Below are positions 5,241-48,128 of a stretch of DNA of 53,139 nucleotides, one piece after another. Origin of the DNA: an uncultured Pyrinomonadaceae bacterium (GTDB lineage Bacteria > Acidobacteriota > Blastocatellia > Pyrinomonadales > Pyrinomonadaceae); contig CADCUR010000224.1 in assembly GCA_902805935.1 (NCBI GenBank), forward strand, positions 1-53,139, written 5' to 3'. The notes under the pieces are model-generated. The model saw only the letters and a list, made by a program, of their open reading frames with translations. It did no database searches and had not been told where the DNA came from. The first letter of the stretch is position 1. Every line of letters starts with the position of its first letter. The translations under genes were made by a program, and so were the position numbers.

Positions 5241-5364
5241 TAAAAAGCGAAAAGGTGAAAAAGCAGGAAGTCGGAAAAATTCCCGACTCGATAAAATACA
5301 GCCGGATTTGCCAAACGACAAACAAACTTTTTCATCTTTTCACTTTTTCACCTTTTCACTTTCA
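5241..5364. repeat. Inverted array of a degenerate heptamer (AAAAGTG type)
   Basis: The left arm (about 5243-5270) is purine-rich with GAAAAGGTGAAAAAG. The right arm (5327-5363) is its complement, CTTTTTCA/CTTTTCA units of period 7-8. The loop ends with AACAAACTTTTTC at 5321-5333. The right arm runs into the TGA stop of the PIN-domain gene (5362-5364). Confidence 0.8.
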
Positions 5365-5820
5365 AGGGCTGACGAGAAATTCGGGTGTGACGATAACGGG
5401 CGAAAAGAATCCGGCGGCAGTATTAAAAAGTCGTATCCGCGCTTGCTTGCGGACGTTCGCCAGATGTCCGAAATTCCATGTCACGAGATAATCAACTTTG
5501 TGAAACGAAGCGAGCGCGACGTGCAGCGCGTCCGCCAAAAATTTTCGATGAAAAATGCCGCGTGAGACATAGCCTTCGGCGAGGATGGCGACTTCTTCAG
5601 CAAGTTCGAGTGTGGCGAGCGGCGCGATCAATTTCAGATAACCCGTTCGGTGCGGCTCGCTCGTTTGTTCGAGTTCGCGCCGAACGAGAATCGAACTGTA
5701 AGCCTGATATTCGACAAGTTCGTGTTCCCACCAGCGAATCGTCAAATCGCGCCGGAAAGGTTCGCCGTTGTCGAGATATGCGCCGACGACGGAAGTTTCC
5801 AGATATAAACTTTGTTTCAT
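5362..5820 (-). CDS. PIN-domain protein (VapC-like ribonuclease)
   Basis: A 152-residue PIN-fold protein. It starts with the YLETS variant of the family's first acidic motif (E8), has the helix acid E49, and the second cluster FLADALHVA with D97, then D110 and the TWNFGHLAN element. PIN proteins are metal-dependent ribonucleases, most often toxins. No antitoxin gene is visible immediately upstream: the 76 bases before its start contain no frame, and the next gene is the TPR/retropepsin protein. It may therefore be an orphan toxin or a housekeeping PIN protein. Its stop codon lies within the right arm of the heptamer repeat. Confidence 0.82.
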   Translation of the reverse strand: MKQSLYLETSVVGAYLDNGEPFRRDLTIRWWEHELVEYQAYSSILVRRELEQTSEPHRTGYLKLIAPLATLELAEEVAILAEGYVSRGIFHRKFLADALHVALASFHKVDYLVTWNFGHLANVRKQARIRLFNTAAGFFSPVIVTPEFLVSP

Positions 5821-5896
5821 TTTAAAATCGGTCTGGGGACTTCAGTCTGTGATTTTTTCTTGCAAAGACAGAAGAGCTAAACTCAAGACCGTTTTT

Positions 5897-7480
5897 CTAT
5901 TTAATCGGCACGAAAATCACTTTCGAATTCAGAAAATCGAACGTTAGGCGATAATTTTTCAGAAAGTTTCCGCCCAGAATTCCCGCCTGTTCAAACCCGG
6001 AAGTTTCGTTTATCAAATTCAAATCGAGCGCGACCGCCGTGATGCTGTTGCGGCTGTGCGCGCCGAACGAGATGCGCGGCAGCAAAAAAGAAGGCACGTC
6101 TTCGGTGATGCCCGCCGCGCCGATGACGCGCATTTTTTCCGCTTTAACGAACGGGCTGATCTCCTTAGAATTTGCCAGCGCCTCGGAAATAACCGATACG
6201 CTCGCGCCCGTATCAACGATAAAATTCAAGGGAACCTGCACGCCTTCGAGTTCGACTTCGCCGCTTAGAAATCCGCTCGAAGTCAGGCGCAGCGGCAGCG
6301 ACAAATTCTTTGTTTCAGCCGGTTTTTCCTCAACCGAACTTTGATTGATTAGAGTAAAAGTCGCGTTGCCGTAATCAAGTGTCGTCAAAAATTTTGAAAT
6401 CAGCGACAAGCCTATGTAGCCGTCAACCCGCTCGTTTTGCGTGTGAAATTTGCGAATATAAACCGGGACGTTTTTGATTTTTACTTCGCCGATGTATATT
6501 GACGGCAGAAAACCATAGACGATTTCAAACTTGCCGTCGCCGCCGATGCCGCGTGCCAAACCGCCGCGCGTAATCGGTTTGATGTTTAATCTTTGGGCGG
6601 TCGCATCGGAGATGACGGAAATTCCCGAACCCGTATCAAGAACGAAATTCAGCGGCTCGTCGGATTTACCCAGTTTGATTTGAATGACCGGACGGTCGTT
6701 GACAAGTTTGACTGGCACGACGGTTTGTTTTGCGCCGTCCAGATCATAAAGCGACTGCCGGTTGCCTAAAAATTGCAGAAAATTAATCAGCCCTTTGATG
6801 CGGTCGCGCCTTTCGACATCGGTCTGCGGCGAAATCCGTAAAAAATTTTTATACGCATCGGCGGCTTCTTTGTAGCGTTCGGCGCGCGCCGAAACCTGCG
6901 CCAGCGCATACAGAAAATCCGGCTCCTGCGGCTCAAGATAAACAGCTTCGCGCAAACTTTCGAGTCCTTGGTTAATCCGATTTTCGTAAAAATCGAGCAT
7001 TCCCAAACCCATCCAAGCCAACGGTTCCTGATTATTAAGTTTTAAGGCGTTAACGAAAGCGATCTGCGCGTTGCGAAAACTTCCGGCGTGCAGCAAGGTC
7101 GTGCCTAAAACGGCGTAGGCGTAGGAATTTTTCGGCTCGGCTTTGGCGATTTCAAACGACATTTCATAAGCCTCAAGAATTCGCCGCTGCTTGAGCAGAA
7201 TGTAGCTGAGATTGAGTTTGGCTTTTGAATGTTGCGGATTGCTCTCAACAACTTGGCGCAGAATTTTTTCGGCTTCGTCAAGCTCGCCTTTGCGCGCCAG
7301 CTTTTCCGCCTGTTTGATTATCTGTTTCGCATCGCCGCCAGCAGTTTGGCTGACGTTATCATTCGCCGCCGCCAGTATCGCAAAAACAGTTGTGATCAGA
7401 CAAACTGACAACGAGCGAACAAATTTTTTCTTGCGGAAAGGAAACCGAAAAACGACAGTTAAAAAATTTTCATACTTCAT
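5897..7480 (-). CDS. Secreted TPR protein with two retropepsin-like aspartyl protease domains
   Basis: A 527-residue exported protein. The basic N-terminus and hydrophobic stretch at 22-39 form a signal peptide or anchor. Residues 50-220 hold TPR repeats. Two aspartyl-protease half-folds follow, each with its own catalytic motif: D282-T-G-S at about 279-295 and D423-T-G-A at 420-436, each followed by the usual ISDA/ISEA helix and a later GxxG-containing flap. Retropepsins act as dimers of one half-fold, so the tandem may form one intramolecular enzyme, as in pepsins. A perfect AGGAGG lies before the ATG. TPRs probably recruit the substrate in the periplasm. Confidence 0.87.
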   Translation of the reverse strand: MKYENFLTVVFRFPFRKKKFVRSLSVCLITTVFAILAAANDNVSQTAGGDAKQIIKQAEKLARKGELDEAEKILRQVVESNPQHSKAKLNLSYILLKQRRILEAYEMSFEIAKAEPKNSYAYAVLGTTLLHAGSFRNAQIAFVNALKLNNQEPLAWMGLGMLDFYENRINQGLESLREAVYLEPQEPDFLYALAQVSARAERYKEAADAYKNFLRISPQTDVERRDRIKGLINFLQFLGNRQSLYDLDGAKQTVVPVKLVNDRPVIQIKLGKSDEPLNFVLDTGSGISVISDATAQRLNIKPITRGGLARGIGGDGKFEIVYGFLPSIYIGEVKIKNVPVYIRKFHTQNERVDGYIGLSLISKFLTTLDYGNATFTLINQSSVEEKPAETKNLSLPLRLTSSGFLSGEVELEGVQVPLNFIVDTGASVSVISEALANSKEISPFVKAEKMRVIGAAGITEDVPSFLLPRISFGAHSRNSITAVALDLNLINETSGFEQAGILGGNFLKNYRLTFDFLNSKVIFVPIK

Positions 7481-7511
7481 AAAATCCTCCTTTCCCGCGC
7501 GGCGAATAATT

Positions 7512-8174
7512 TTATTTAAGAATCTCGCCGGTTTTCATTGACCATAAAACTAAATCCAATTCATCAAAATCAATTCCGGTCAGCGCTGCTAAATTTTTCA
7601 ATTTTTCTTCGGTCGCCAGGTATTTCGCTCTGGTGTTCGGCGGTTGCGGATCGCTGATAATTCCGAGTTCCGCGAGCGAGCGCAAAACGTGTTTGTCGAG
7701 AATCGCGTAGCCCCGATAGCCGATGTTTCGCAAATAATGGCTCGCTTCTTTATAACCCAAACCTTTAATGCGTTTTTCTTTAACCAGCCAGTCGCGCCGC
7801 GCTGCGTCGTCCTCGAGACCTTCCAGTTTCTCGCGTAGACGCAAGCCGCAATGCTCTTGCAAAAACTCGCGCGAAGCGACGATGTAACCAGCCCGCGCAT
7901 TCGGGTAACGATGTCTGCCGACTAACGCGGCAGCTAATTCCGCCTGATTTCCCGCAAGCAACAGCGGTTTGACCGCCTCGACCGAGCGAATGCCCATCCG
8001 CGCCGAACAGCCGCCGGTGAAGAAACAAAAAACCATTTCCTCCCAAAGGCGTTCGTCCGCTCCGCTCCTCCGAATGTCTTGAAACTCCGCCAGTCGTCTC
8101 TCGATTTCCGTGCGTCGTTCAAGGTGAGCGGCTTTTATTTTTTCAATCGTTAAGGGCGTTTGTTCTTTTTTCAC
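7512..8174 (-). CDS. ogg: 8-oxoguanine DNA glycosylase/AP lyase, Ogg2 type
   Basis: A 220-residue bifunctional base-excision enzyme of the helix-hairpin-helix superfamily. The hairpin IKGLGYKEASHYLRNIG (136-152) carries the catalytic lysine K142, and AILDKHVLR has the conserved aspartate D160. This hairpin-plus-DKH arrangement matches the Ogg2 class best known from archaea and a scattering of bacteria, which removes 8-oxoguanine opposite cytosine and nicks the abasic site. There is no C-terminal 4Fe-4S cluster, unlike Nth. The start is a GTG. A second glycosylase, Nth, is encoded at 51539-52255. Confidence 0.87.
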   Translation of the reverse strand: MKKEQTPLTIEKIKAAHLERRTEIERRLAEFQDIRRSGADERLWEEMVFCFFTGGCSARMGIRSVEAVKPLLLAGNQAELAAALVGRHRYPNARAGYIVASREFLQEHCGLRLREKLEGLEDDAARRDWLVKEKRIKGLGYKEASHYLRNIGYRGYAILDKHVLRSLAELGIISDPQPPNTRAKYLATEEKLKNLAALTGIDFDELDLVLWSMKTGEILK

Positions 8175-9987: not shown

Positions 9988-9991
9988 TAAA

Positions 9992-10045
9992 GGAACGCCA
10001 GCATCTTGCTGGCATCAGTGTTTGCCAGCAAGATGCTGGCGTTCC
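9992..10045. repeat. Perfect 23-bp inverted repeat made of smaller palindromes
   Basis: Arms at 9992-10014 and 10023-10045 are perfectly complementary around an 8-base loop. Each arm itself contains the 17-base hairpin GCCAGCATCTTGCTGGC. The locus begins four bases after the carboxypeptidase stop. It looks like a REP/BIME-type element in a 3' untranslated region. Confidence 0.8.
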
Positions 10046-10049
10046 GTTT

Positions 10050-10079
10050 AAGGAAGCAAAAAACTTTGCTTCCTTTTTA
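10050..10079 (+). terminator. Intrinsic terminator between dacB and murJ
   Basis: An 11-bp stem (AAGGAAGCAAA at 10050-10060, TTTGCTTCCTT at 10065-10075) with a 4-base loop is followed by T-rich sequence. It immediately follows the nested palindrome. Confidence 0.7.
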
Positions 10080-10141
10080 TTTTGCGCTTTACAGAAAAGC
10101 ATACGATAATTCACGTTTGCCGAGAAAGCATTTAAGAATGG

Positions 10142-15802: not shown

Positions 15803-15815
15803 TTACCAAAATTAT

Positions 15816-15903
15816 TTAGCCACAGAGGACACAGAGAGAAAAACTAGAGAAGGAAATGAACAAACTTTTTCTCTCTGTATTTCTCCGTGTTCTCTGTGGC
15901 TAA
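15816..15903. repeat. Inverted repeat built on CACAGAG units
   Basis: The left arm (15816-15841) reads as tandem variants of CACAGAG/GACACAGAG, the right arm (15866-15903) as the complement CTCTGTG. The arms are imperfect. The loop ends with AACAAACTTTTTC at 15859-15871, the same 13 bases as at 5321 and 19674. It lies between the start of the oxidoreductase and the stop of the M48 protease. Confidence 0.82.
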
Positions 15904-15908
15904 AAAAA

Positions 15909-16880
15909 TTACTTCTTCATCAAATCCGCGTATTCGCCTTCGTCAACCCATTTCAGAATTTCCGATACGCGCCAGACGGGAAACGGATGCGATAAACCCG
16001 AACCTAAAATGTCCGCCCAGAAGCGGTCGAGTTTTTTCTCATCGTAATTTTTCTCAAACTCGCGCGCCTGCTCTAAAAACAAATCGTAATCAATTTTCGA
16101 GGCGAAAGTTCCGCCGCAGAGTTTCATCATCGTGCGCCCGATGACGTGCGGGTCTTGCGTCACGAGCAGCGCGGCGCGGTCACAGGAAAGTTCGGCTTTG
16201 CGCGCCCACGCGAGCAAGGAGCCGCTGATGCCGGCGGAAATCAGAAACTTGATGATGTCCGCACCCGGAATCAGCCGCGCTAGCGAAGCATTCGCCAGCG
16301 CTTCGATAAGACGCGCGGCGGTCAAATACAAAACATGCTCGGCGTGAATATGTCCGACTTCGTGCGCGATGACCGCCAGAGTTTCTTCGTCGTTCAGACG
16401 CTCGATCAGAGACGAATGCAGCACGATAATCGGTCGGTCAACGCCGCCCGTAAAAGCGTTAACGACCGGATTTTGCTGCACGTAAAGTTCCGGCATATCA
16501 ACGCCAAGCGTCGTGCAGGCGATTTGCAGTTTGGCGTATAAATCCGGGCATTGTTTCGGCGTGACTTTCACCGCGCTCGCCATAAACATCACGCGAATAG
16601 CTGATTCGCCCGTCACTTTCAGCAACTGTTTTAATGCCGTATCAATTCCGGGAATCGCCCGCAACGCAGCGAGAGCTTTGCTGTCCGCCGGATGAACGTA
16701 TTCGTGTTTGCTCAAATCGGCAAACTTTTTATGCGCTTCGTTCGAGAGCGGCAGACGGCAGCGTCCGCACACGGCTTCATTGTTTTTGTAATCTTCGCGG
16801 ACGGAATTTTTCTGTCCGCAGTAACGGCACCGCACCGAATAACGCTCGGCGACGGCGGCTGTTGAATCTTTTTTTGACAT
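15909..16880 (-). CDS. M48-family zinc metallopeptidase with zinc-ribbon
   Basis: A 323-residue protein. An N-terminal zinc ribbon (CxxC at 18-21 and 38-41) precedes an M48 peptidase domain with HEVGH at 173-177 and the third zinc ligand E230 in ARKAELSCDRAAL. M48 enzymes include HtpX and Ste24; the peptide ARKAELSCDRA and the hydrophobic stretch around 200-225 suggest membrane association. The frame opens 12 codons earlier, but the ATG at 16880 begins the typical cytoplasmic ribbon, and a TACACT hexamer ends seven bases before it, so the mRNA may be leaderless. Confidence 0.85.
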   Translation of the reverse strand: MSKKDSTAAVAERYSVRCRYCGQKNSVREDYKNNEAVCGRCRLPLSNEAHKKFADLSKHEYVHPADSKALAALRAIPGIDTALKQLLKVTGESAIRVMFMASAVKVTPKQCPDLYAKLQIACTTLGVDMPELYVQQNPVVNAFTGGVDRPIIVLHSSLIERLNDEETLAVIAHEVGHIHAEHVLYLTAARLIEALANASLARLIPGADIIKFLISAGISGSLLAWARKAELSCDRAALLVTQDPHVIGRTMMKLCGGTFASKIDYDLFLEQAREFEKNYDEKKLDRFWADILGSGLSHPFPVWRVSEILKWVDEGEYADLMKK

Positions 16881-18138: not shown

Positions 18139-19629
18139 ATGGATTTCCCAAGAGCCAGCGGTATTTTGCTGCACGTGACTTCTCTGCCGAGCCGTTTCGG
18201 TGTCGGCGATTTCGGCGGCGAAGCGTTTCAATTTATAGATTTTTTGGAACGAGCCGGACAAACTTATTGGCAGATTCTGCCGCTCGGTCCGACCGGCTAC
18301 GGCGATTCGCCGTATCAATCTTTTTCGGCGTTCGCCGGAAACGCGCTTTTAATTTCGCCGGAAAGAATCGTCGAAGACGGATTTCTGACGAAAAAGGAAA
18401 TCGCTAATCCGCCGAAATTTTCCGCCGAACGAGTTGATTTCGGCGGCGTGATCGAATGGAAGAACAAAATTCTGAAACAGGCTTTTGAACGATTCAAGCG
18501 GACGGACGACGAACGAATCGCCCGCGCGTTTCACGAATTTTGCGACCGCAACAATTTCTGGCTCGAAGACTATGCGCTCTATCGCGCTATTAAATTATCA
18601 ATCAGCCAAGATTCCTGGCAGGATTGGGAAGCGCCTTTGAAACTGCGCGAACCGGAAGCCTTAGACGAGACGAAACGTGAACTCGACGAAACCATATTCG
18701 CCGAAAAATTTTACCAATTTACATTTTTCAAACAATGGTTCGCGCTAAAAAAATACGCCAACGGTAAAGGCGTGAAAGTAATCGGCGACGTGCCGATTTT
18801 CGTCGCGCTCGATTCCGCCGATGTCTGGTGCAATCCGCCGCAATTTAAATTAAACGCCGACGGAAAGCCTTCGGTTGTCTCAGGCGTTCCGCCCGATTAT
18901 TTTTCAAAAACCGGGCAGCGTTGGGGCAATCCGATTTACGATTGGGAACAGATGCGGGCGGACGGCTTTCGCTGGTGGATTGAACGAATTAGATTCGCGC
19001 TGCAACAAACCGACATCATTCGCGTTGACCATTTTCGCGGATTTGAAGCGTGTTGGGAAGTTCCCGCCGCGGACAAGACGGCGGAAAACGGACGCTGGAT
19101 TTCGGCGCCGGGCGCGGAGCTTTTAAGCGCGCTGCGCGACGCGCTCGGCGAACTGCCGTTTATGGCGGAAGATTTGGGCGAGATTACGCCGGCGGTCGAA
19201 CAGCTTCGTGATTCGTTCGGTTTAGCGGGAATGAAAATCTTACTTTTCGCTTTCGGCGGCGCGGCGGATAATCCGTATCTGCCGCACAACCACGTCAAAA
19301 ACGCGGTCGTTTACACGGGCAATCACGACAACGATACGATTGTCGGCTGGTTTAAATCGGCGAATAGAAGCGAACGCGATTTTTGTTTGAAGTATCTCAA
19401 CTCAAACGGTAAGGAAATTCATTGGGACTTTATTCGCGCCGCGTTCGCTTCGGTCGCCGACAGCGCGATTGTGCCGTTGCAGGACGTTCTCGGCTTGGGC
19501 AACGAAGGTCGTATGAATTTGCCTTCGACCGATTCGGGAAATTGGAACTGGCGCTGTCAGGGCAAGGACTTTTCCGATAAACTCGCCGAAAAATTAAAGG
19601 ATATGACGAAAATTTACGGACGGGTGTAA
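18139..19629 (+). CDS. malQ: 4-alpha-glucanotransferase (amylomaltase)
   Basis: A 496-residue GH77 enzyme that transfers maltodextrin segments between glucans in the cytoplasm. Family blocks are present in order: SGILLHVTSLPSRFGVGDFG at the N-terminus, LGPTGYGDSPYQSFSAFAGN, the nucleophile strand IIRVDHFRGFEACWEVP, the acid/base strand MAEDLGEITP and the stabiliser GNHDNDT. Length is typical. It lies 12 bases after the MBL hydrolase gene and probably shares its transcript. The TAA stop overlaps the first bases of a heptamer repeat. Confidence 0.94.
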   Translation: MDFPRASGILLHVTSLPSRFGVGDFGGEAFQFIDFLERAGQTYWQILPLGPTGYGDSPYQSFSAFAGNALLISPERIVEDGFLTKKEIANPPKFSAERVDFGGVIEWKNKILKQAFERFKRTDDERIARAFHEFCDRNNFWLEDYALYRAIKLSISQDSWQDWEAPLKLREPEALDETKRELDETIFAEKFYQFTFFKQWFALKKYANGKGVKVIGDVPIFVALDSADVWCNPPQFKLNADGKPSVVSGVPPDYFSKTGQRWGNPIYDWEQMRADGFRWWIERIRFALQQTDIIRVDHFRGFEACWEVPAADKTAENGRWISAPGAELLSALRDALGELPFMAEDLGEITPAVEQLRDSFGLAGMKILLFAFGGAADNPYLPHNHVKNAVVYTGNHDNDTIVGWFKSANRSERDFCLKYLNSNGKEIHWDFIRAAFASVADSAIVPLQDVLGLGNEGRMNLPSTDSGNWNWRCQGKDFSDKLAEKLKDMTKIYGRV

Positions 19630-19726
19630 AGTGAAAACGGGGAAAGGTGAAAAAACGAGCTTGCCAAAATTCAAACAAACTTTTTCCCCTTTTCACTTTT
19701 TCACTTTTTCACTTTTTCACTTTTAA
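19628..19726. repeat. Inverted heptamer array between convergent malQ and RlmD-like genes
   Basis: The left arm (19628-19655) has GTGAAAA/GGTGAAAAA units and the right arm (19681-19724) the complement CACTTTTT, four near-identical copies. AACAAACTTTTTC sits at 19674-19686. The left arm starts inside the malQ stop codon. The right arm contains the stop codon and the last residues (KVKK) of the converging gene. Confidence 0.83.
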
Positions 19727-20922: not shown

Positions 20923-21657
20923 TTATAAATAAAACAAACTCAGACGCGGAATTTCAGCTTGTTCGCGCAAGCGTTTGAGCAGCATTAAATCGAAGGTGCG
21001 CCGGTAAACTTCCCGTTCCATTTTGTTTTTATACGAGGCGATTTCTTTTTCGATTTCACCTTTTAGCGCGTCGGTTTCAAAAGCGTGCAGCAGGCTTTCG
21101 TCAATCAACGCGTCGAGTCGCTCAAGCGATTCTTCGAGTTTTTCTGCCGCGTGCGATTTTCCTTTGAGTTCGGCGAGGCGATTCGCAACTTTTTTCAAAG
21201 TCGCTTGCAAGTCGCCTTCGGCTTTATCGGCGGCTGATTTTAATTCGAGCGAAACTCGTTCGAGATGCGCGGCAATTGCGTCGTCGGGGAAAAGTCCTGA
21301 GTCCTGAGTCCTCGGCGCTGAGATTTCCGACTTGGGACTTCGGACTTGGGACTCGGGGTTTCGGACTTCCTGACCGTTGCCGTTTTTCCCAACTTGCCGC
21401 TCCAGCCATTCGGCGTATTGCGCTTCAATTTCCTCTTTGCAGTAAAGCAGACTTTTCACGGTTCGCTTGCGCGCCGCCGGCTGCAAATCAACGCTGTCGA
21501 AAATTTTTTCGATGCCGCGCAAGATAATGTGCAGCGGAACTTTGCGCTCCTGCCAGCTTTCAATCAACGCCCAGTCGAGCGGCGACAGCAACAGATTGCG
21601 CCCGCGCCGCCGTATGAACAGTTCTTCGATTTCGGAAAAATAATTAAAGTAATTCAA
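20923..21657 (-). CDS. Hypothetical helical protein with repeat-derived insert
   Basis: I do not recognise the family. The N-terminal half (FSEIEELFIRRRGRNLLLSPLDWALIESW and IEKIFDSVD) looks like a compact helical domain. The C-terminal half is strongly charged and helical. Between them an Asn/Pro/Ser-rich insert (NPESQVRSPKSEIS) is encoded exactly by the period-7 tract at 21292-21370, in frame. The frame is open to a TTG at 21705, but bases 21660-21705 belong to another repeat, so I prefer the TTG at 21657. Start confidence is low. It lies 20 bases upstream of the RlmD-like gene, on the same strand. Confidence 0.62.
   Translation of the reverse strand: MNYFNYFSEIEELFIRRRGRNLLLSPLDWALIESWQERKVPLHIILRGIEKIFDSVDLQPAARKRTVKSLLYCKEEIEAQYAEWLERQVGKNGNGQEVRNPESQVRSPKSEISAPRTQDSGLFPDDAIAAHLERVSLELKSAADKAEGDLQATLKKVANRLAELKGKSHAAEKLEESLERLDALIDESLLHAFETDALKGEIEKEIASYKNKMEREVYRRTFDLMLLKRLREQAEIPRLSLFYL
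21292..21370. repeat. AGTCCTG/GGACTTG period-7 tract inside a coding region
   Basis: The left half is three tandem AGTCCTG-like units (from 21293). The right half has GGACTTG/GGACTTC units in the inverse sense. The tract is in frame with the hypothetical gene and encodes a low-complexity Pro/Ser/Asn linker. Confidence 0.8.
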
Positions 21658-21659
21658 GG

Positions 21660-21791
21660 AATTTGCGATTTTCAATTTGTGATTGGTCAAAAGAGCAAGC
21701 TGCAAATTGAATTTGAGTTTTTAACGCTTTGAATTTTTCACTCAACCTTTGCTTTACGAAATTGCAAGTCGCAAATCGCAAATCGCAAATT
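21660..21791. repeat. Inverted array of GCAAATC heptamers
   Basis: The left arm (21660-21687) has ATTTGCG/ATTTTCA/ATTTGTG units. The right arm (21762-21791) has GCAAGTC and three GCAAATC copies. The loop is about 74 bases. The right arm ends in the TAA stop of the 86-residue gene (21790-21792) and the left arm abuts the hypothetical gene's probable start. Confidence 0.78.
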
Positions 21792-22050
21792 ACTCCAGTC
21801 TGATTTTCATTCGCCGCAAAGCGCGCACGTCTTCGTCGGTCAAATCGAGTTCGATTTCTTCCGGAAAATTGTCGAAGTCTTCTTCGGTCGGCTGCAAACC
21901 GATTTCTAATTTGAGAGTTAAATTCGGTTCGTAACCAAGCCTGCGCAAGCCTTCGATGGCGTCCGCTACGCGCGAGGATTTTTCCACCGCCGCGTTGATC
22001 GCATCGCCGAGTTCGCCCACCGCTTGTTTTGCGTTTTTGTCGAGTTCCAT
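21790..22050 (-). CDS. Small hypothetical protein, 86 aa
   Basis: An 86-residue acidic protein. The first 45 residues are helical with alternating Ala (NAKQAVGELGDAINAAVEKS), followed by LGYEPNLTLKLEIGLQP and a Glu/Asp-rich end with DLTDEDVRALRRMKIRLE. I do not recognise a family. It has no signal peptide or membrane segment. It is upstream of the helical hypothetical gene on the same strand but separated from it by the GCAAATC repeat, which begins at its stop codon. Confidence 0.65.
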   Translation of the reverse strand: MELDKNAKQAVGELGDAINAAVEKSSRVADAIEGLRRLGYEPNLTLKLEIGLQPTEEDFDNFPEEIELDLTDEDVRALRRMKIRLE

Positions 22051-22095: not shown

Positions 22096-22180
22096 ACAGG
22101 ACAGACGGGATTTACGGGATAAAAAATTAAAACCGAGAAAAATTGATTTCCATCCTGTTTATTCCGTTCATCCTGTTAAT
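22096..22180. repeat. Inverted period-9 repeat (ACAGGATGA type)
   Basis: The left arm (22096-22120) has AACAGGAC/AGACGGGAT/TTACGGGAT units of period 9. The right arm (22151-22180) is the degenerate complement with CATCCTGTT. It lies between the divergent 86-residue gene and the acyl-CoA mutase gene, just upstream of the latter's promoter. Confidence 0.7.
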
Positions 22181-22209
22181 CGCAGCCTTATTCAATGCGG
22201 AAAATTTTG

Positions 22210-26980: not shown

Positions 26981-27742
26981 TTACCTTTTTCCGGCGACGA
27001 CGACAATCGAAACGCCGAACGGAAAATCGAAATTTTTGAGCCAGAAGCGTTCCGCGCCGAAGAGTTTCCCGAAAATGCCGTTGAGCGCCGAGACGTTGAC
27101 GTTATTTTCTGATTCGGGTCGGATGCCGGTGAGCCGCATTAAAGTTCTACCGCCCAAAATCGGCGCGAAAAACGTCCAATTGGCGTAGGTCGCGCGTTCG
27201 ATTTCAAAACCGGCTCGTTCCAATCTTTCCGTAATCTGTTTTTTCGTGTAACGAATGCGGTGATTGGAAACGTCGTCCTGCACGCCCCAGAGCCACATAA
27301 ACGCCGGAACGAAAATTAAAGTTTTGCCGCCCGACTTTAAAGCGCGGTGCATTTCCTTGAGTCCGGCAACGTCGTCGTCCAAATGCTCGACGACATCGAG
27401 CGCGGTCACGACATCGAAACTCTCATCGGCAAACGGCAGTTTTTCAGCTAAGCCTTTATGAACTTTTAAGCCTTTCGATTTACAGAATTCGAGCGCTTCG
27501 TCGGAGACATCTACGCCTTCCGCCGCGCCGAATTTCTCCAGCATTTCAAGGTTGCCGCCCGTGCCGCAGCCGACATCGAGAATCTTTGGATTTTGGATTT
27601 TGGATTTTGGATTTTGGATTATTCGCTCTAAAAAAGATTCTAAAATTTGGCGGCGACCGACATACCACCAATGCGAATCTTCAACGCGGTTCATAATCGC
27701 GTAGGTGTGTTGCTGCATTTCCTGCGGTAAAGTTGAACTCAT
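26981..27742 (-). CDS. Class I SAM-dependent methyltransferase with repeat-derived insert
   Basis: A 253-residue Rossmann methyltransferase. Motif I, ILDVGCGTGG, lies at 54-63, followed by the acidic end of strand 2 (GVDVSDEALEFC), TALDVVEHLDDD and the FVPAFMWLWG region; HWWYVGRRQIL near the N-terminus is typical of glycan- or lipid-linked family members. Directly before motif I, residues 42-53 (IQNPKSKIQNPK) are encoded by five tandem TTTGGAT heptamers on the opposite strand (27585-27620). The insert keeps frame and should form a short loop on the surface. The substrate is unknown. Confidence 0.83.
   Translation of the reverse strand: MSSTLPQEMQQHTYAIMNRVEDSHWWYVGRRQILESFLERIIQNPKSKIQNPKILDVGCGTGGNLEMLEKFGAAEGVDVSDEALEFCKSKGLKVHKGLAEKLPFADESFDVVTALDVVEHLDDDVAGLKEMHRALKSGGKTLIFVPAFMWLWGVQDDVSNHRIRYTKKQITERLERAGFEIERATYANWTFFAPILGGRTLMRLTGIRPESENNVNVSALNGIFGKLFGAERFWLKNFDFPFGVSIVVVAGKR
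27585..27620. repeat. Five tandem TTTGGAT heptamers inside a coding region
   Basis: A 36-base run of near-perfect period 7, single orientation. It encodes IQNPKSKIQNPK in the methyltransferase; three heptamers equal seven codons, so the peptide also has period 7. Confidence 0.9.
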
Positions 27743-30689: not shown

Positions 30690-31769
30690 ATGAGCGATAA
30701 ACTTCACATCACCGGACTTTCAATTAACGACCTTGCCGAATTCGTCCAGGAAATCGGCGAGCCGAAATACCGCGCGAAACAGATTTTTGTAAATCTGCAC
30801 GCGAGACGCGCTCTCGATTTTGACGAGATGACGGATTTGCCGAAAGCGTTTCGTGAAAAGTTGAACGAGACGGCGAGGGCGACGACTCTAAAAGTCGAAT
30901 CGCGCTACGTTTCGGCGGACGGAACGCGCCGATTTTTGATGAAAACTCACGATAATTATCCGGTCGAGACGGTTTACATTCCGACCGAAGACCGCGACAC
31001 GATTTGTTTTTCCTCGCAGTCAGGCTGTCCGCTTAAGTGCGATTTTTGTTTGACGGCGAAGCTCGGACTATTGCGGAATCTAACGGCGGGCGAGATTGTC
31101 GAGCAGATAATCGTCGTTTTAAACGACGTTTACGGCGCGGGCGCACAGACGCCGCACGGCACGAATCTGGTGGCGATGGGCGCGGGCGAGCCGTTTTTGA
31201 ATTTCGAGAATTTAATAAAAGCGCTGGGAATAATGGCGGACGAAGCCGGTTTGTTTATCGTCCCGAACCGCGTTACGGTTTCGACCGCCGGCATCGTGCC
31301 GAAGATTTACGAATTTGCGCGTCTGGAAAAGCGTCCGAATCTGGCGATTTCGCTATCGGCGCCAAACGATGAACTGCGCGACAAGTTAATGCCGATCAAT
31401 CGGCGTTGGAATATCGAAGAACTTCTGCAAGCCGCCAAAGAATACGAAAAAACTTTGCGGCGCGGCGAGCGGTTCACGTTTGAATACGTTTTGCTCGGCG
31501 GCGTGAACGATTCGGACGCGCACGCCCGCGCTTTAGCCGAACTGCTCGCCAAATACGATTTGCAGCGAGTGAAAATCAATTTGATCGCGCACAATTCGGC
31601 GGAGCCGCTCGAATATCGCCCGCCTGATATTGAACAAGTTGAACGATTCAAAAAGATTTTAGAATCGAAGGGCGTGTCGGCTTACGTGCGTCGTCCACGC
31701 GGGCGCGATATTTACGCGGCTTGCGGACAACTCGCGGCGAAAAACGCGCCGAATCTCGTGCGGGTTTAA
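30690..31769 (+). CDS. rlmN: Dual-specificity RNA methyltransferase RlmN
   Basis: A 359-residue radical-SAM enzyme that methylates C2 of A2503 in 23S rRNA and A37 in tRNAs. The cluster motif CPLKCDFC gives C113, C117 and C120; GAGEPFLNFENL, LAISLSAPND and the C-terminal AACGQL, with the methyl-carrying cysteine near residue 345, complete the signature. TAAAAT ends nine bases before the ATG with no ribosome-binding sequence, and a CGCTAA/TTAGCG stem spans the start region. A heptamer repeat begins two bases after its stop. Confidence 0.95.
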   Translation: MSDKLHITGLSINDLAEFVQEIGEPKYRAKQIFVNLHARRALDFDEMTDLPKAFREKLNETARATTLKVESRYVSADGTRRFLMKTHDNYPVETVYIPTEDRDTICFSSQSGCPLKCDFCLTAKLGLLRNLTAGEIVEQIIVVLNDVYGAGAQTPHGTNLVAMGAGEPFLNFENLIKALGIMADEAGLFIVPNRVTVSTAGIVPKIYEFARLEKRPNLAISLSAPNDELRDKLMPINRRWNIEELLQAAKEYEKTLRRGERFTFEYVLLGGVNDSDAHARALAELLAKYDLQRVKINLIAHNSAEPLEYRPPDIEQVERFKKILESKGVSAYVRRPRGRDIYAACGQLAAKNAPNLVRV

Positions 31770-31771
31770 AG

Positions 31772-31882
31772 GTCAAAAGTGGAAAAGTGAAAATGTGAAA
31801 AAGTTTTTTTGTCGAGAGTATATGATTGCTTTTTTACTTTTACCCTTTTTCACATTTTCACTTTTCCACTTTTCCACTTTTT
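31772..31882. repeat. Inverted heptamer array (GAAAAGTG type) after rlmN
   Basis: The left arm (31772-31803) has AAAAGTGG/AAAAGTG/AAAATGTG; the right arm (about 31830-31882) has the complement, ending in CCACTTTTCCACTTTTT. GAAAAAGTTT next to the left arm resembles the inverse of the AACAAACTTTTTC motif. It fills the gap between rlmN and the next gene's ATG. Confidence 0.8.
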
Positions 31883-32960: not shown

Positions 32961-33031
32961 GCGAAAAGGCGCAAAATTCACAAAATAAAAGTCGGCAATT
33001 GAAGTTTTGTTAATTTTGCGCCTTTTGCGGC
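32961..33031. repeat. Imperfect 25-bp inverted repeat (GCGAAAAGG type)
   Basis: Arms at 32961-32985 and 33005-33031 are complementary for about 22 bases with one mismatch before they diverge, around a 19-base loop. It lies 20 bases past the DsbD-N-like gene's stop and probably doubles as its terminator. Confidence 0.72.
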
Positions 33032-35115: not shown

Positions 35116-35190
35116 TTGTTAAAAATTAACAACAATGCGCTTTTCTTTTTTTTTGTGATTGTTTACAATATATCAGGTAAAAATTTACCT
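35116..35190 (+). promoter_or_regulatory. Palindrome-rich control region of the kinase gene
   Basis: TTGTTAA/TTAACAA (35116-35122 with 35126-35132) is a perfect 7-bp dyad. A possible -10 TACAAT lies at 35164-35169 with a poor -35 (TTTTCT) 17 bases upstream. A second dyad AGGTAAA/TTTACCT (35175-35181 with 35184-35190) sits just downstream. These look like regulator sites, but the regulator is unknown. Confidence 0.4.
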
Positions 35191-35233
35191 TCCCATCTTA
35201 ACCCAAAATTATTCCTTCGTTTACACACAAGAT

Positions 35234-41554: not shown

Positions 41555-41603
41555 GTTAAAGGATAAAGGATAAACGACAGTTGAATCCTTTATCCTTTTC
41601 GCG
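41555..41603. repeat. Inverted AAAGGAT heptamer hairpin
   Basis: AAAGGATAAAGGAT (41558-41571) pairs perfectly with the complement from 41585 to about 41598, around a 13-base loop. It lies about 25 bases past the STAS stop and is followed by T-rich sequence, so it may act as its terminator. Confidence 0.78.
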
Positions 41604-41648
41604 TTTTTGAAAAGCATCTTTCGTCCGCTGCCAAACATCTTTATTACA

Positions 41649-41724: not shown

Positions 41725-41753
41725 AATTTCGGGTTTTTCTAATCACAAATACA

Positions 41754-43499
41754 ATGAAACGAGTTTTACAGCTTGCCGCAATTTTAATTTTTTCTGTCAA
41801 CGTCTTTGCCCAGACGCCGCCTGGTCTTGATTTAACGAATTACGGCGTGCGAATCGAGCCGGACAAACGCGTGATGACCGTTTTGGCGGCGCTCGAAGCG
41901 GCGGGCATTGATACGTCTCTGACGGCGGAAGGCGAGAATTTTCGCCAAAAGTTAAAAACCGATTTATTAAGTACCAGTCCCGATCTACGTCAGAAATTAG
42001 TTGTCTTTGTCGAGCAGTATAAACGCCGTCATCCAAAGGCGACGAACGCCGAGCTAATTGCGCCGTTCGTTTCGATGGCTTATTCGCTCGCGCCCGCGCC
42101 GGATTTGACCGATTCGCCGCGTTCGACCGATTTGCCGGGCGACCTGCTCGACGTGCTTGATTTCGCGCCGCTCGTGCGCGAATTTTACCGGCGCCAATTC
42201 AGCCAGAAAATTGACGAATACGTCAAAGATTATCAAACCGCTGGAACGGATTTGCGCCCCACAGCCGGTGCGATGGTCGGCGAACTGCTCGACTATCTGC
42301 ATACCCGACCGCAGCTCGTTTCTATAGAACGAATCAAAACCGAATCGAAAGACGCCAAAGGCAAAAAGACTATAACGCAAACTGAAACGCGCGAGCGCGA
42401 GCGCAGATTTTACATTATTCCAGAAATGCTCGCCCCGAAAAACACGATAAATTTCGTTAACGTCGGCGACAATTACTACGCGATTGTGCCGCCGAAAACC
42501 GATTTGAGCCAATCGGAGGCAAGGCGCGCGTATTTGCAGTTCGTCGTTGACCCGCTCGTTTTAAATAACGCCAAAGATATTGCGACGCTGCGCGCGGGCA
42601 TCAAAACTCTGCTCGACGAGCAGCGAAAGCGTAACGCAGAAATTTCGCCCGATGTCTTTCTCGCCGTTTCCCGCTCGCTTGTGGCGGCGACCGAAGCCAG
42701 ACAAATCGAATTCGAGAAAACGAATATCGCCACTGCGCAAGCCCGCCGCAAAATTGACGGGATGAAAACCGAGCCGGAAAAACTCGCGGTTTCCGCCGAA
42801 CTCGACGCAGTTAAAAAATCGCTCGCCGACGAAACGGCTCTGCAGCTTTCCGAAGCCTACGAGCGCGGTGCCGTTTTGTCGTTTTATTTCGCCGACCAGT
42901 TAAAAGGCTTGGAAGATTCGGGTTTCGACATTGCCGGTTCGTTGCGCGACATTATTTTGTCGCTCGACCCAGCGAAAGAAGCGAATCGTCTCGCGCAGTT
43001 TGCCGACGCCAGAAAACGCGCCACCCTAGCGCGCGAAGAACGCCGAAAAAACAATCCTACTCAGGAATTCGTCGTGGAAAATCCGGTGACCAAAAAACTG
43101 CTTGAGATTGACCAAATCACCAGAACGAAAAATTACGCCGAATCGGAAAAACAACTCAAACAACTGCTCGACGCGAACCCGTCGGAATCGCGCATTCATT
43201 ACGCGCTCGGTCGCGTGGCGAGCCTTTCGGCTGAAAGCATCGCCGATACCGACAAGCGCAACAACCGTTTGGCGGAAGCGAAAACATATTATACAAACGT
43301 CATTCGCTCGGCGACGCCGGCGACCGATGCGGCTCTGCTTTCCCTGTCTTACGTTGCGCTCGCGCGAATTTACGAGTATTTCGGCGATACCGGATACGCC
43401 GCCAAGATTTATGAAACGGCAATCAAAATCGGCAACGTCAAAGACGGCGCATACAATGAAGCGGTTGCCGCACGCGACAGATTGGTCAAAGAGCAATAA
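41754..43499 (+). CDS. Secreted protein of unknown function with TPR-like C-terminus, 581 aa
   Basis: A signal peptide (to about residue 21, VFAQ) leads into a mostly helical protein. The last 150 residues contain TPR-like units (AESEKQLKQLLDANPSESR and a later YEYFGDTGYAAKIYETAIK). The middle has a long Lys/Glu-rich stretch. I do not recognise the family. The frame opens earlier through repeat sequence to 41607, but the ATG at 41754 begins the signal peptide. TAATCA ends eight bases before it and there is no ribosome-binding sequence. A heptamer repeat begins one base past the stop. Confidence 0.75.
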   Translation: MKRVLQLAAILIFSVNVFAQTPPGLDLTNYGVRIEPDKRVMTVLAALEAAGIDTSLTAEGENFRQKLKTDLLSTSPDLRQKLVVFVEQYKRRHPKATNAELIAPFVSMAYSLAPAPDLTDSPRSTDLPGDLLDVLDFAPLVREFYRRQFSQKIDEYVKDYQTAGTDLRPTAGAMVGELLDYLHTRPQLVSIERIKTESKDAKGKKTITQTETRERERRFYIIPEMLAPKNTINFVNVGDNYYAIVPPKTDLSQSEARRAYLQFVVDPLVLNNAKDIATLRAGIKTLLDEQRKRNAEISPDVFLAVSRSLVAATEARQIEFEKTNIATAQARRKIDGMKTEPEKLAVSAELDAVKKSLADETALQLSEAYERGAVLSFYFADQLKGLEDSGFDIAGSLRDIILSLDPAKEANRLAQFADARKRATLAREERRKNNPTQEFVVENPVTKKLLEIDQITRTKNYAESEKQLKQLLDANPSESRIHYALGRVASLSAESIADTDKRNNRLAEAKTYYTNVIRSATPATDAALLSLSYVALARIYEYFGDTGYAAKIYETAIKIGNVKDGAYNEAVAARDRLVKEQ

Positions 43500-43500
43500 A

Positions 43501-43636
43501 GCGGAAAAGTGGAAAGGTGTAAAAGGTGAAAAAGTTGGTTTGGTAATCGCAAATGACTTTTTCGCCTTTTGTCGTTTATACATTCTTCGCGTTTCCGCTT
43601 TTTCACTTTTTCCCATTTTCACTTTTCCGCTTTTTA
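43501..43636. repeat. Inverted heptamer array (GGAAAAGTG type) before era
   Basis: The left arm (43501-43535) has GGAAAAGT/GGAAAGGTGT/AAAAGGTG. The longer right arm (43557-43636) has TTTTTCAC/TTTTCCGC units. GAAAAAGTTGGTTTGG next to the left arm resembles an inverted AACAAACTTTTTC. It fills the gap between the secreted protein and era. Confidence 0.8.
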
Positions 43637-43652
43637 CTGCTAATTTTACTAG

Positions 43653-44552: not shown

Positions 44553-44554
44553 AT

Positions 44555-45469: not shown

Positions 45470-45497
45470 ACAGCAATTGTTTTTCGTTCGTTTGTTT
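45452..45497. terminator. Terminator overlapping the prmA 3' end
   Basis: A 13-bp stem (AAACAAACGAACG at 45452-45464 with 45485-45497) and a 20-base loop that contains the prmA stop codon. T-rich sequence follows. It also serves the converging YCF48 gene. Confidence 0.65.
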
Positions 45498-45508
45498 TCG
45501 GCTTTTCG

Positions 45509-47578
45509 CTAATTATCTTTTTCTTTTTTTGGTTCGGTCGCCGCCGGAATATCGCCGTCGTCAGCGACGGTCACAATCGGCTGCCGCGTTTTCGGTTTAC
45601 TTTTTGGAATTCCCAAACGCAGCGTCGGCGGTAGTTTTTGACCTTCGGTTGTTCTGACCGCTGACAGCGTTTCGGAGCGGCGCAGAATCGAGCCGCCGCG
45701 TCCGGCAATCCACAAATCAATGCCACCGAGATAAACTATCGCCTGCAAAGATTTGTTCGTGATGCTCGGCTGTCTTTCCCAGGTTTCGCCGCCGTCTCTG
45801 GTCATAAAAATCGCGCCCGCCTCGCCGACCGCAATCGCTTCTTTGCGGCTATAACAGGTCACCGCGTAAAGGTTTACTTTGAAAGATGTTTCCTGTTCTC
45901 GCCAGGTTTCGCCGCCGTCGGCGGAGCGCAAAACCGTGCCGTTCGCGCCGACCGCCACGCCGATTTTTTCATCGTAAAAATCGAGCGCGTATAAATTGTC
46001 TTCGAGATTTGTGTTGATTTTTCTCCAACTCGCGCCGCCGTCATTCGTTTTCAGAATCGTTCCCTTGTCGCCGACGATTACACCGCGCCGTTCGTCGAGA
46101 AATTTTACGTCCTCAAGCCACGTCCGCGCGCCCGATTCTATTTGTTCCCAATTCAAGCCGCCCGAAACAGAGCGCAAAATCATGCCGCCTGCGCCGACGG
46201 CACAGGCGGTTTTTTCGCCTGCGAAATCAACGCCGTGCAAATCTTCGATGACGCCGGAAACAGTTTTGCTCCAGCTCGCGCCGCCGTTGCCCGTCCGCAA
46301 AATTGTGCCTTTGTCGCCGACCACCAAGCCGCGCGCAGCATCGAGAAAACCGAGCGCGTTCAAATTTTCTTCCGCGCCCGAGAAAACCGACAGCCAATCG
46401 TTGCCGCGATTATTCGTAATCCAGATTTTGCCTCGCGCGCCGGCTGCCAGACCGATGTAGTTATCGAAAAACGTCATATCGTTGACATCTTGGCGTCCGC
46501 CATCACTCAAGCGCTGCCAACTGTAGCCGCCGTCGTCCGAGCGGATTATCAAACCGTTTTCGCCGACTGCCCAGCCGGTGAACGGATCGGCAAAATAAAG
46601 CGCGACGAGTTTCGGATTAGTGCGGATGCTGAACGGCAACCACACATTGCCGCCGTCGCCGGTCAGCCAAATCATACCGTTCGCGTCGGTCATAAACCCG
46701 GTCTTTTCGTCGGCAAAATAGATTGACAAAAAATCGGCGCGGCTGAAGACGTTGATTTTCTCCCACGTTTCGCCGCCGTCAACGCTGCGCGCTACGCAGC
46801 CGCCGTGACCGACGGCGACGATTTTTTCCGCCGCCGGATACGCCGCGCCCGTCATTAGGTAATTGTCGCACGGTTTATTTAATTTCCAGATTTCGCCGCC
46901 GTTTTTTGTTGATAAAATCGCGCCGTTCGTGCCGACGACAACGCTTTTTTGCGCGTCGAATGCGGCGATCTTTAAGAGCTGTTCCGTCGTTCCGCTCGAC
47001 TGATTGCGCCAAGTTTCGCCGCCGTCCGTCGTTTTCAAAATCCGCCCGTAAGTTCCGACCGTCCAGCCCGTCTGAAAATTTTCGCCCGCCAAAGCAATGC
47101 CGTAAAGATGGTCTTTTACTTCGATTTCAATACGCTGCCATTCCTTGCCGCCGTCGTCGGTCGTGTAAATAGAACCGCGCGAGCCGACGATGACCGCGTT
47201 TTTTTTATCTTTGACAAAAACGCCGGAGAGCGTGGCGGCGTTCGGCGAACTTTGCTTTTGCCAGCGAAAACCGCCATTCTCCGTTCGCAAAATCGTATTT
47301 TCCGCGCCGACCGCAAAACCGTTTTCTTTATCTTTGGCAAAATGAATTGAGTAAAGCGCATTGCCCTGCGGCAGCGGATTTTGCCAAATCCAGCCGGAAG
47401 AACTTTGTTTCTGCGGAAATGCGGAGGAGCAAAGACAGAGAAGAAGCAGGAAAAGAAACGCGGAGACGCGGAGACGCGGAGACGCGGAGAGGTGTTGCTC
47501 AAACTGCTGATTTTTCTCCGTGTCCCTATGACGCTGCGTCTCCGCGTCTTCCCAAAATTTTGCGTCTTCGTCTCGCAT
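45509..47578 (-). CDS. YCF48/BNR-repeat beta-propeller protein, secreted
   Basis: A 689-residue protein whose bulk is about a dozen YCF48-like blades, each with a motif such as GFAVGAENTILRTENGG or GVIVGDKGTILKTNDGG. YCF48 is a photosystem II assembly factor in cyanobacteria; in other bacteria such propellers are secreted and bind partners. The signal core is RVSAFLFLLLLCLC at about 37-50, unusually preceded by 36 hydrophilic residues (DAETQRHRDTEK, SASPRLRV) encoded by an octamer repeat. The start is coupled to the rnhA stop (TAATG, 47576-47580). The last 45 residues are Lys/Pro-rich. Confidence 0.85.
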   Translation of the reverse strand: MRDEDAKFWEDAETQRHRDTEKNQQFEQHLSASPRLRVSAFLFLLLLCLCSSAFPQKQSSSGWIWQNPLPQGNALYSIHFAKDKENGFAVGAENTILRTENGGFRWQKQSSPNAATLSGVFVKDKKNAVIVGSRGSIYTTDDGGKEWQRIEIEVKDHLYGIALAGENFQTGWTVGTYGRILKTTDGGETWRNQSSGTTEQLLKIAAFDAQKSVVVGTNGAILSTKNGGEIWKLNKPCDNYLMTGAAYPAAEKIVAVGHGGCVARSVDGGETWEKINVFSRADFLSIYFADEKTGFMTDANGMIWLTGDGGNVWLPFSIRTNPKLVALYFADPFTGWAVGENGLIIRSDDGGYSWQRLSDGGRQDVNDMTFFDNYIGLAAGARGKIWITNNRGNDWLSVFSGAEENLNALGFLDAARGLVVGDKGTILRTGNGGASWSKTVSGVIEDLHGVDFAGEKTACAVGAGGMILRSVSGGLNWEQIESGARTWLEDVKFLDERRGVIVGDKGTILKTNDGGASWRKINTNLEDNLYALDFYDEKIGVAVGANGTVLRSADGGETWREQETSFKVNLYAVTCYSRKEAIAVGEAGAIFMTRDGGETWERQPSITNKSLQAIVYLGGIDLWIAGRGGSILRRSETLSAVRTTEGQKLPPTLRLGIPKSKPKTRQPIVTVADDGDIPAATEPKKEKDN
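47456..47552. repeat. Inverted octamer array (GACGCGGA) inside the YCF48 gene's N-terminus
   Basis: The left arm (47456-47490) has four tandem copies of GGAGACGC-type units, the right arm (about 47511-47552) the degenerate complement. Period 8. The array encodes a charged N-terminal extension and the first signal-peptide residues (SPRLRVSAF) of the YCF48 protein. Confidence 0.85.
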
Positions 47579-48036
47579 TAAATTTCGCGCACACCGATTT
47601 CCGCGACGGCTTCGTCCAAAATCTTTTCGTCAACTCGACCGAGTTCCGCCATCAGGCGCGCCATTTTGTCGGCGACTTCCTGAACTTCGTGTCCCGCGTG
47701 TCCTTTTGTCCACTGCCAGTTTATCCGGTGCTTTTTCGCCGCTTCGTCGAGTTTGCTCCACCAATCCAAATTCGCTTTTTTGCGAAATCGCCCGGTCATC
47801 GTCTCGACCACGTAGCGCGAATCGGTTAAAACTTTCACTCGGCACGGTTCGCGCAGAGTTTTTAATCCAACCCACGCCGCCGCGATTTCCGCCTGCTGAT
47901 TTGTCGCCTCGCCCAAGAATTCACCGAACGCCCGCCAGTAACCGCGATAGCCGAGTACGGCGACCGCCGCCGCGCGCGGCTTGCCTTTGCCGTTGCCGAG
48001 ACTCGAACCGTCGCAGACGATTGTTACTTCCTTCAT
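47578..48036 (-). CDS. rnhA: Ribonuclease HI
   Basis: A 152-residue enzyme that cuts RNA in RNA-DNA hybrids. The metal-binding acids are visible: D9 (CDGSS), the glutamate of NQQAEIAA, the aspartate of TDSRYVVE, and the late aspartate of EVQEVADKMA, where the usual NERCD box reads EVAD. The length is typical. Its stop overlaps the start of the YCF48 gene (TAATG). The GHAGHEVQEV segment is the histidine-containing flexible loop. A 35-bp perfect repeat lies seven bases upstream of its ATG. Confidence 0.92.
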   Translation of the reverse strand: MKEVTIVCDGSSLGNGKGKPRAAAVAVLGYRGYWRAFGEFLGEATNQQAEIAAAWVGLKTLREPCRVKVLTDSRYVVETMTGRFRKKANLDWWSKLDEAAKKHRINWQWTKGHAGHEVQEVADKMARLMAELGRVDEKILDEAVAEIGVREI

Positions 48037-48042
48037 AATAAT

Positions 48043-48128
48043 TAAGGGATAAGGGATGAAGGGTGAGGGATGAATAAAGCAAAAATACTTGTCTTATTCA
48101 TCCCTCACCCTTCATCCCTTATCCCTTA
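48043..48128. repeat. Perfect 35-bp inverted heptamer repeat (AAGGGAT)
   Basis: Arms at 48043-48077 and 48094-48128 are perfectly complementary and each is a run of AAGGGAT-type heptamers, with a 16-base loop. It fills the gap between rnhA's start and the stop (TAA, 48126-48128) of the next gene. The right arm supplies that stop codon. Confidence 0.95.

Follow-up and report, generated by a model that had tools for sequence, protein, structure and literature searches.

Short repeat palindromes that tend to hold their position between genes, while the repeated word differs among species, recur along a 53,139-nt stretch of DNA from an uncultured Pyrinomonadaceae bacterium (assembly GCA_902805935.1), namely the entire contig CADCUR010000224.1 (C224), hereafter the window. 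We read these elements, with a probability of roughly 0.55, as families of dispersed convergent tandem-repeat hairpins, in which a tract of 7-, 8-, or 9-nt units is followed by a short core and then by an inverted tract. The palindromes look like a known kind of bacterial repeat, caught mid-rewriting. The genome to which the window belongs (G000; 3.87 Mb in 317 contigs, 89.9% complete, 50% G+C) was compared with its eight nearest relatives, all of the same genus (G001 to G008), with which it shows ~65–89% identity in the gene-sized matches listed.

An earlier reading of the window (the original prediction) had described a set of palindromic loci with short tandem units, and these loci are real. 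The window contains 24 tandem tracts with a period of 6 to 9, versus a mean of 3.3 (maximum 9) in 60 dinucleotide shuffles performed on 300-base blocks. Tracts with an inverted partner no more than 130 bases away number 11, versus 0.05 in the shuffles (maximum 1), which places the predicted arms far above shuffled sequence. A stricter detector retained seven paired elements in the window, or 13 per 100 kb. The same detector found 18 in 180 kb of G003 (eleven stretches, some on contigs first found via repeat matches, one of which, L344, supplies six of the 18), four in 60 kb from other genera of the family (14 loci), one in 30 kb from other families of the class (7 loci), and none in ten shuffles of each sample. 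In 439 kb of the own genome it found 36, a density that is biased because the contigs besides the window were chosen for octamer matches. The own genome together with seven of its eight relatives gave 105 paired elements, with a period of 7 in 74 and 8 in 26, and with a loop of median length 27 nt (5–95% range, 7–90), so that the predicted 10–70 bases were about right. These 105 elements comprise 52 distinct units; the claim that units differ among loci is supported.

Orthologous gaps show that many of these sites are occupied in other species. At least one bracketed orthologue was found for 28 of the 35 gaps searched. For the element-bearing gaps of the window (g1, g5, g7, g8, g15, g20, g21, and g23, with g8 called by eye, and with g6 and g16 dropped since they have no bracketed orthologue), arrays are present in 23 of 38 relatives' cells, and the remaining gaps have them in 17 of 82 (Fisher p=5e-5, by hand tally of cells that are mutually non-independent). 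Reuse is weak at g1 and g23, where the element has a counterpart in one of four relatives each. The original prediction had asked whether the loci stay unchanged in relatives. They do not, as whole arrays, and at several sites both arms, change unit, and its own refutation test therefore does not refute it.

Unit change can be followed in the closest pair, G003 and G007, which share 90.55% identity over 58 kb of summed alignments. By eye, the unit differs at 6 of 22 compared sites, all six non-coding: GTTTCAA/AATTCCA, TGGTAAA/CAGTTAT, GTTCAAA/AGTCCAA (one base per unit), an AAACTAA mix/octamer, TATAAAC-type/AAAATCG, and a 10-mer/AATTCCA. It is kept at three non-coding sites (ACACAGATT, AATTACG, and AAAAGTG-type) and in four arrays: L068:9111, where the window's orthologue has an ORF (open reading frame) around the array, and L334:10317, L334:16217, and L336:15100. 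Four sites carry arrays that are one-species-only or unlike (L347:3715, L133:1508, L334:14841, and L144:577), and five were set aside as unclear, not tandem, or showing small changes (L078:873, L123:5141, L334:9853, L348:86, and L348:169). The G003 stretch L334:14749-14932 is an insert resembling a miniature inverted-repeat transposable element (MITE), with terminal inverted repeats TTAGAACTTACGCAGTTGAA and a heptamer palindrome inside; it is absent from G007.

Sites also keep a memory of their units. Using consensus units from 44 site-species cells, two of them entered by hand, and excluding pairs of unequal period, we found 7-mer units at the same site to be 2.29 mismatches apart (59 pairs), versus 3.13 at different sites (503 pairs; p=0.0002 when units are shuffled among sites within species). 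The values for all periods are 2.19 (64 pairs) and 3.05 (520 pairs), with 25 of the 64 same-site pairs at distance 0 or 1. Since same-site units are closer than different-site units, one is often derived from another, though some have been replaced wholesale. Random intergenic heptamers have a mean distance of 3.70, and 20 of 503 different-site 7-mer pairs (4.0%) differ by no more than one mismatch, versus 1.6% for intergenic 7-mers; the unit pool is therefore narrower than chance. At g8, the core carries likeness as well. None of 500 shuffles was as good as the match between G002 and G007, or between G003 and G004, and the cores of G002 and G007 are alike though two of the seven bases differ between their arm units. 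For the other pairs, the number of shuffles as good was 10 of 500 (G004-G007), 133 (G003-G007, not significant), 134 (G002-G003), and 147 (G002-G004).

A case of change in place lies in a coding sequence. TTTGGAT at 27585, which had been listed among the palindromic loci, has no inverted partner: it is a one-armed array of five units (27585..27620, minus strand) within ORF 26981-27742, which encodes a methyltransferase domain, and it sits just ahead of the ILDVGCG motif. The array occupies the same codons in G000 and in the four relatives aligned across its whole length (G002, G003, G004, and G008). Its unit is TTTGGAT, TTTCGAT, TTTGGAC, or TTTGAAT depending on the genome, one or two bases apart, and is largely uniform within each array, that of G008 being mixed and that of G004 6 bases shorter. 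Taken with the likeness of same-site units, this array changing unit in place indicates that units evolve in concert in place and, since there is no inverted partner, that homogenization does not need a hairpin. Accordingly, the proposal that a single process makes both the expansion and the inversion is not shown, as one-armed arrays turn over without inversion.

The claim that each locus has its own unit was overstated, because units recur as dispersed families. One set of loci is that of the AAAAGTG type (5241, 19628, 31772, and 43501), which had been assigned a period of 7 and actually has a period of 8. We defined the octamer pattern as GTGAAAAAG, 10–40 bases, and CTTTTTCAC. It has 34 matches in G000, 28 in G004, and 0–4 in each of the other seven same-genus genomes; the reversed pattern has none in the nine. 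With each locus counted once (the 34 matches in G000 overlap), there are 59 loci, of which 29 are in G000, 20 in G004, and 10 elsewhere. The core measures 21–26 nt at 34 of the 59 by the exact pattern, and at 51 if a variant inner unit is accepted (by eye; with one or two substitutions or lacking one base), the remaining lengths being 10, 10, 11, 15, 18, 33, 39, and 39. This near-constant length, which resembles the copying of a defined element, is also at odds with the single-process claim. In a consensus set of 45 cores of 21–26 nt (the 34 above plus 11 from a family-wide scan), TTGA occurs near the left end in 17, TCAA near the right end in 15, and both in seven, versus 2.9 and 2.6 for the two ends in shuffles (maxima 8 and 7), with no left-right covariation within the cores (p=0.18). 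Of 119 genomes of the family, 6 carry a stricter octamer form. Some octamer cores read TTGA-N6/7-TCAA (e.g., G000:C208:21503-21543), which recalls the consensus of FNR/FixK-type sites. A second dispersed family is that of the GGGATGA-type element at 48043, of which G006 has similar full-length copies at many loci and G000 at several. In the copies printed from these two genomes, the arms and an inner GAATAA-like end are common, and the core centre hardly so (by eye).

The two arms of an element show a modest mirroring in the order of their unit variants. Among 63 paired tracts detected without use of pairing, the order of unit variants matched the other arm better than permuted orders in 34, worse in 16, and equally in 13 (Wilcoxon p=0.006). 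Related but distinct units share polarity in 33 of 45 pairs, and by locus pairs in 496 versus 55, a count that two families dominate and that was partly fetched by similarity. CAGTTAT arrays were followed further afield with a 24-mer scan, in which 80 of at least 111 stretches were analyzed, giving 92 array places in named genomes. By a looser motif, 15 of these have a convergent partner and none a divergent one; since so few have a partner, most such arrays are one-armed outside this genus. Hosts among the matches listed are Cyanobacteria, Planctomycetes, Bacteroidetes, Verrucomicrobia, Nitrospirota, Beggiatoa relatives, and Acidobacteria. In Arcicella aurantiaca (L257), convergent CAGTTAT arms surround a terminator-like hairpin whose stem also contains CAGTT. 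Viral stretches with CAGTTAT arrays number 80. For the octamer family, carriage by viruses was considered and rejected: only 1 of 49 viral pattern matches has a tandem arm, and that arm is made of another unit.

As for genomic context, the 36 elements of the own genome divide into 17 in co-directional gaps, 6 in convergent ones, 5 in divergent ones, and 8 that overlap ORFs (crude gene call on a biased sample). These gap types match the background, in which gaps of 60 bp or longer number 120, 45, and 51, respectively (chi-square p=0.77). Element ends lie within 15 bp of a facing stop codon in 22 of 29 cases and of a facing start codon in 9 of 27. A general role as terminators was rejected on gap type alone, given background-like types and no enrichment in convergent gaps, with the hairpin at 41556 as an exception. 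No Rfam family was found at the gathering threshold. Y1_Tnp domains are present in eight of the nine genomes (35 loci listed). Repeats of REP/RAYT systems reportedly end in a tag, GTAG or CGTC (PMC3733652); among the 52 distinct units, read in tandem on either strand, GTAG occurs in none and CGTC in three.

We describe the individual loci of the window in order, with strand unassigned unless given. The octamer (AAAAGTGA) palindrome at 5239..5367, whose arms are separated by 43 nt, lies between two minus-strand ORFs; the orthologous gap contains an octamer element in G008 and none in G003, G004, or G006. Gap g27 (5821..5896) has no clear array in the window, and in relatives holds GTTCAAA/AGTTCAA (one unit; G003, G004, and G008), AGTCCAA (G007), or AAAGAGT (G006), with none flagged in G005. 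In g5, a nonamer (ACACAGAGG) palindrome (15809..15910) occupies the gap between a start codon and the neighboring stop codon, and the palindromes of relatives are made of GCAGT- (G004), GGTGATA- (G008), or GGTAAGT-type (G001) units. The octamer palindrome at 19628..19724, between convergent ORFs, has no bracketed orthologous gap. The AGTCCTG/GACTTGGG arrays at 21292..21369 lie within ORF 20923-21705(-), and relatives have arrays of ACTTCTG, ACTTTGA, AATCTGG, or ACTTGGG at this place, G002 having none. In g7 (GCAAATC palindrome, 21657..21794), arrays are present in all five bracketed relatives: GGTGAAT (G002), GGTAAAT (G003), GTAAGTG (G004 and G005), and CAGTTAT (G007); G008 has GCAGTTA, its contig ending within the array. 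The divergent gap g8 contains a degenerate nonamer (ACAGGATGA) palindrome (22096..22181), recognized by eye and missed by the automatic detector, and units in relatives are GTTTCAA (G002, G003, and G004), AATTCCA (G007), and CAGTTAT-like (G005). The octamer palindrome of g15 (31768..31881) is matched by an octamer in G007, GGCAGTC-type in G004, AAAGGAT in G008, an AAACTAA mix in G003, and GGTGAAC-like units by eye in G005, with no element in G002 and no array in G006. The next locus, predicted at 32961, is indeed an inverted repeat (32964..33026; 22-nt arms, 95%), one that lacks clear tandem units and has no bracketed orthologous gap; likewise, 41649 proved to be a weak pair (27 nt, 74%) with no tandem tract. 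At 41556..41598 (plus strand), a short AAAGGAT hairpin followed by TTTT is a terminator-like exception, its unit being identical in six of seven genomes compared and degenerate in G004 (by eye). The octamer palindrome of g21 (43498..43634) has arrays in all five bracketed relatives: octamer (G004 and G005), AAATGGA (G006), AAAGTGA (G008), and CATTTAT (G002). An octamer (ACGCGGAG) array with its partner (47458..47547) lies in the 5' part of ORF 45509-47578(-), with a similar array in G004, the sole relative aligned across it; this locus and 21292 both fall within ORFs. Finally, the GGGATGA-type heptamer palindrome of g23 (48043..48129) has, as predicted, a perfect 35-bp inverted repeat, which sits inside 40-nt arms that are 95% complementary.

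Three other repeats were seen in the window. A REP-like palindrome without tandem units at 9989-10051 (GGAACGCCAGCATCTTGCTGGCA) has many similar copies in G000 and G004. A 90-base stretch at 35597-35686, in the protein-kinase ORF 35159-36952, recurs at several loci in G000 and relatives at 75–88% identity. Positions 1-130 recur elsewhere in G000, G002, G005, and G008 at 82–97% identity (70% in G003), and these first ~130 bases of the contig are probably a repeat that broke the assembly.

The anatomy of these elements matches that of the convergent Xanthomonas heptamers, and their behavior is somewhat REPIN-like. According to the consulted portion of PMC4692102, Xanthomonas GGGAATC heptamers are tandem and intergenic, form 70 and 75 convergent inverted pairs in two species, and usually retain their singlet or pair type. 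They share with our elements two tandem heptamer tracts, inverted and convergent, and differ in that one G-rich, G-quadruplex-forming unit serves both species, whereas here there are many units, changing at one site, along with octamers and nonamers. CAGTTAT, seen here at site g7 of G007 and elsewhere in G003, is a rotation of the complement of TAACTGA (MacGregor 2015, PMC4679880). In the excerpts of that source, TAACTGA repeats are scattered over phyla, show indels in 7-nt steps between close strains, and comprise 169 direct sets and a single indirect one, mostly placed shortly before start codons, in contrast to the convergent pairs, often near stop codons, and the unit change seen here. REPINs, as described in the consulted part of PMC3116915, are likewise dispersed, intergenic, inverted doublets that form a hairpin, and their spacers conserve length and the capacity to form a hairpin rather than sequence, a length constraint that we see in the octamer family only. 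Unlike our variable tandem tracts, whose units mostly lack the end tag, they end in one conserved REP, and in-place unit turnover was not found mentioned in that part of the description. The RAYT linkage of REPINs was not found at the seven Y1 loci checked here.

Cyanobacterial short tandemly repeated repetitive (STRR) sequences are short tandem heptamers located between genes, and the likeness of our elements to them and to small dispersed repeats lies in these two traits. The link to cyanobacteria made by the original prediction holds only as an analogy, the host here being an acidobacterium. Its methylmalonyl-CoA mutase shares 91% identity (residues 96-530) with that of Pyrinomonadaceae bacterium CAN_BIN29, the closest of eight genomes compared, and no more than 65% with those of the four others that gave a match. 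We recognized no description of in-place unit change in bacterial tandem palindromes in one open-licence library, which is not proof of absence. In a Microcystis gap (L243:7000-7200), heptamer arrays are differing and mosaic in the six genomes, of seven, that could be compared, G040 and G043 being most alike; these genomes are 92–98% identical in long matches of one 8-kb stretch, the only stretch examined. Since the arrays differ at one gap, our genus is not alone in rewriting fixed sites rapidly. In Microcystis viridis (L243:400-600, 1100-1280, and 7000-7200), a G-rich GGGTGTG arm and a CTGATAA arm surround a shared core, GGGGAGTTTTCTCAGTGA or near, in both orientations.

The best account of these findings, to which we give slightly better than even odds, has two layers, in-place homogenization and the dispersal of successful families. 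In place, replication or repair would copy one unit or arm onto another, either by slippage along the tract or by template switching through the hairpin; units would be homogenized within, and sometimes between, arms, so that the unit would drift as a block. In the second layer, whole elements of successful families may be copied to new or occupied gaps in a REPIN-like manner, by a putative activity that would recognize the hairpin rather than fixed terminal sequences. In the cell, such repeats would most likely be selfish or simply tolerated, affecting mRNA ends as a by-product rather than acting as a dedicated signal.

Several observations weigh against this account. The site-reuse tally is confounded by gap length, and 16 of the 64 same-site pairs are at distance 4, that is, unrelated, so that drift alone is no explanation. 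Arm mirroring is modest, as for the 34 tracts that allow six or more orders an average of 62% of orders equal or beat the true one, and polarity is not absolute, being opposite in 12 of the 45 related pairs of distinct units. By an exact-partner test, which is too strict for variant units, 6 of the 92 CAGTTAT places have a partner downstream only and 1 upstream only; places in viral contigs (n=86) show 5 convergent and 1 divergent. Octamer core centres align with a score of 5.71 versus 5.36 shuffled, slightly above all 40 shuffles, and GGGATGA core centres with 3.68 versus 3.57, inside the shuffle range. Such near-shuffle scores had suggested that loops are random filler at break ends, a candidate weakened by the length and positional consensus of octamer cores. 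Target-site duplication is absent (n=103, mean 3.78 versus 3.81 when re-paired, p=0.64), in a test whose power is limited because ends are ill defined in tandem tracts; an ATTCAAG duplication at g7 in G004 is apparent only and not general across the 103 elements. Finally, no periodic hairpin was found within ~1.5 kb of the seven Y1 loci examined out of 35, and the number of Y1 loci does not follow that of octamer matches (2 versus 34 in G000, 6 versus 1 in G006).

Alternatively, a Y1 transposase (RAYT or IS200-like) might act in trans on the dispersed copies, which would then be transposons akin to REPINs or MITEs, with different families hitting a few tolerant gaps and older copies being lost. 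We regard this as possible and yet rather unlikely. Dispersal itself, a near-constant core length (REPIN spacers, too, being constrained in length), a loose core consensus, species-specific abundance (octamers in G000 and G004, GGGATGA in G006), mostly fixed polarity, ends near stop codons, the 4 of 22 G003/G007 sites with one-species-only or unlike arrays, and the wide presence of Y1_Tnp all fit such transposition, whereas same-site units alike beyond chance, a coding array that changes unit in place, the missing target duplication, and the lack of elements beside the seven Y1 loci do not. The absent duplication also agrees with the original view that this is not a transposon with fixed ends. 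A more tentative proposal, which we judge unlikely, is that a previously undescribed, hairpin-recognizing rewriting system overwrites both arms with a new tandem unit from a genomic pool, keeping the site, the polarity, and sometimes the native core, for which the alike cores of G002 and G007 at g8 would be an example.

That selection keeps a stem while its sequence drifts, the elements being functional RNA or DNA hairpins such as terminators or protectors of mRNA 3' ends, appears improbable. Ends that hug stop codons, the AAAGGAT hairpin at 41556 kept with its T run in relatives, and the arms around the Arcicella hairpin are what this explanation would predict, but gap types match the background, 8 of 36 elements overlap ORFs, the one-armed array turns over too, and Rfam offers no family. 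Independent local slippage from random seeds, with units shared by composition bias only, is very improbable. The many different units agree with it, as does the abundance of heptamers, which outnumbered every other class of long simple repeats in most of the surveyed genomes (Mrazek 2007, cited in PMC4679880), but not the closeness of different-site units relative to intergenic 7-mers, the octamer core length and consensus, or the inverted partners.

We know of no accepted mechanism or function for the heptamer repeats found across unrelated bacteria. A genus whose gaps can be followed and whose units change makes this question testable, as it separates in-place homogenization from dispersal, and individual events could be read in close pairs such as G003/G007 (~90.5%) and in Microcystis (92–98%). 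If hairpin-guided rewriting were true, site and structure, rather than sequence, would define the element, and this would be a new way for intergenic DNA to evolve.

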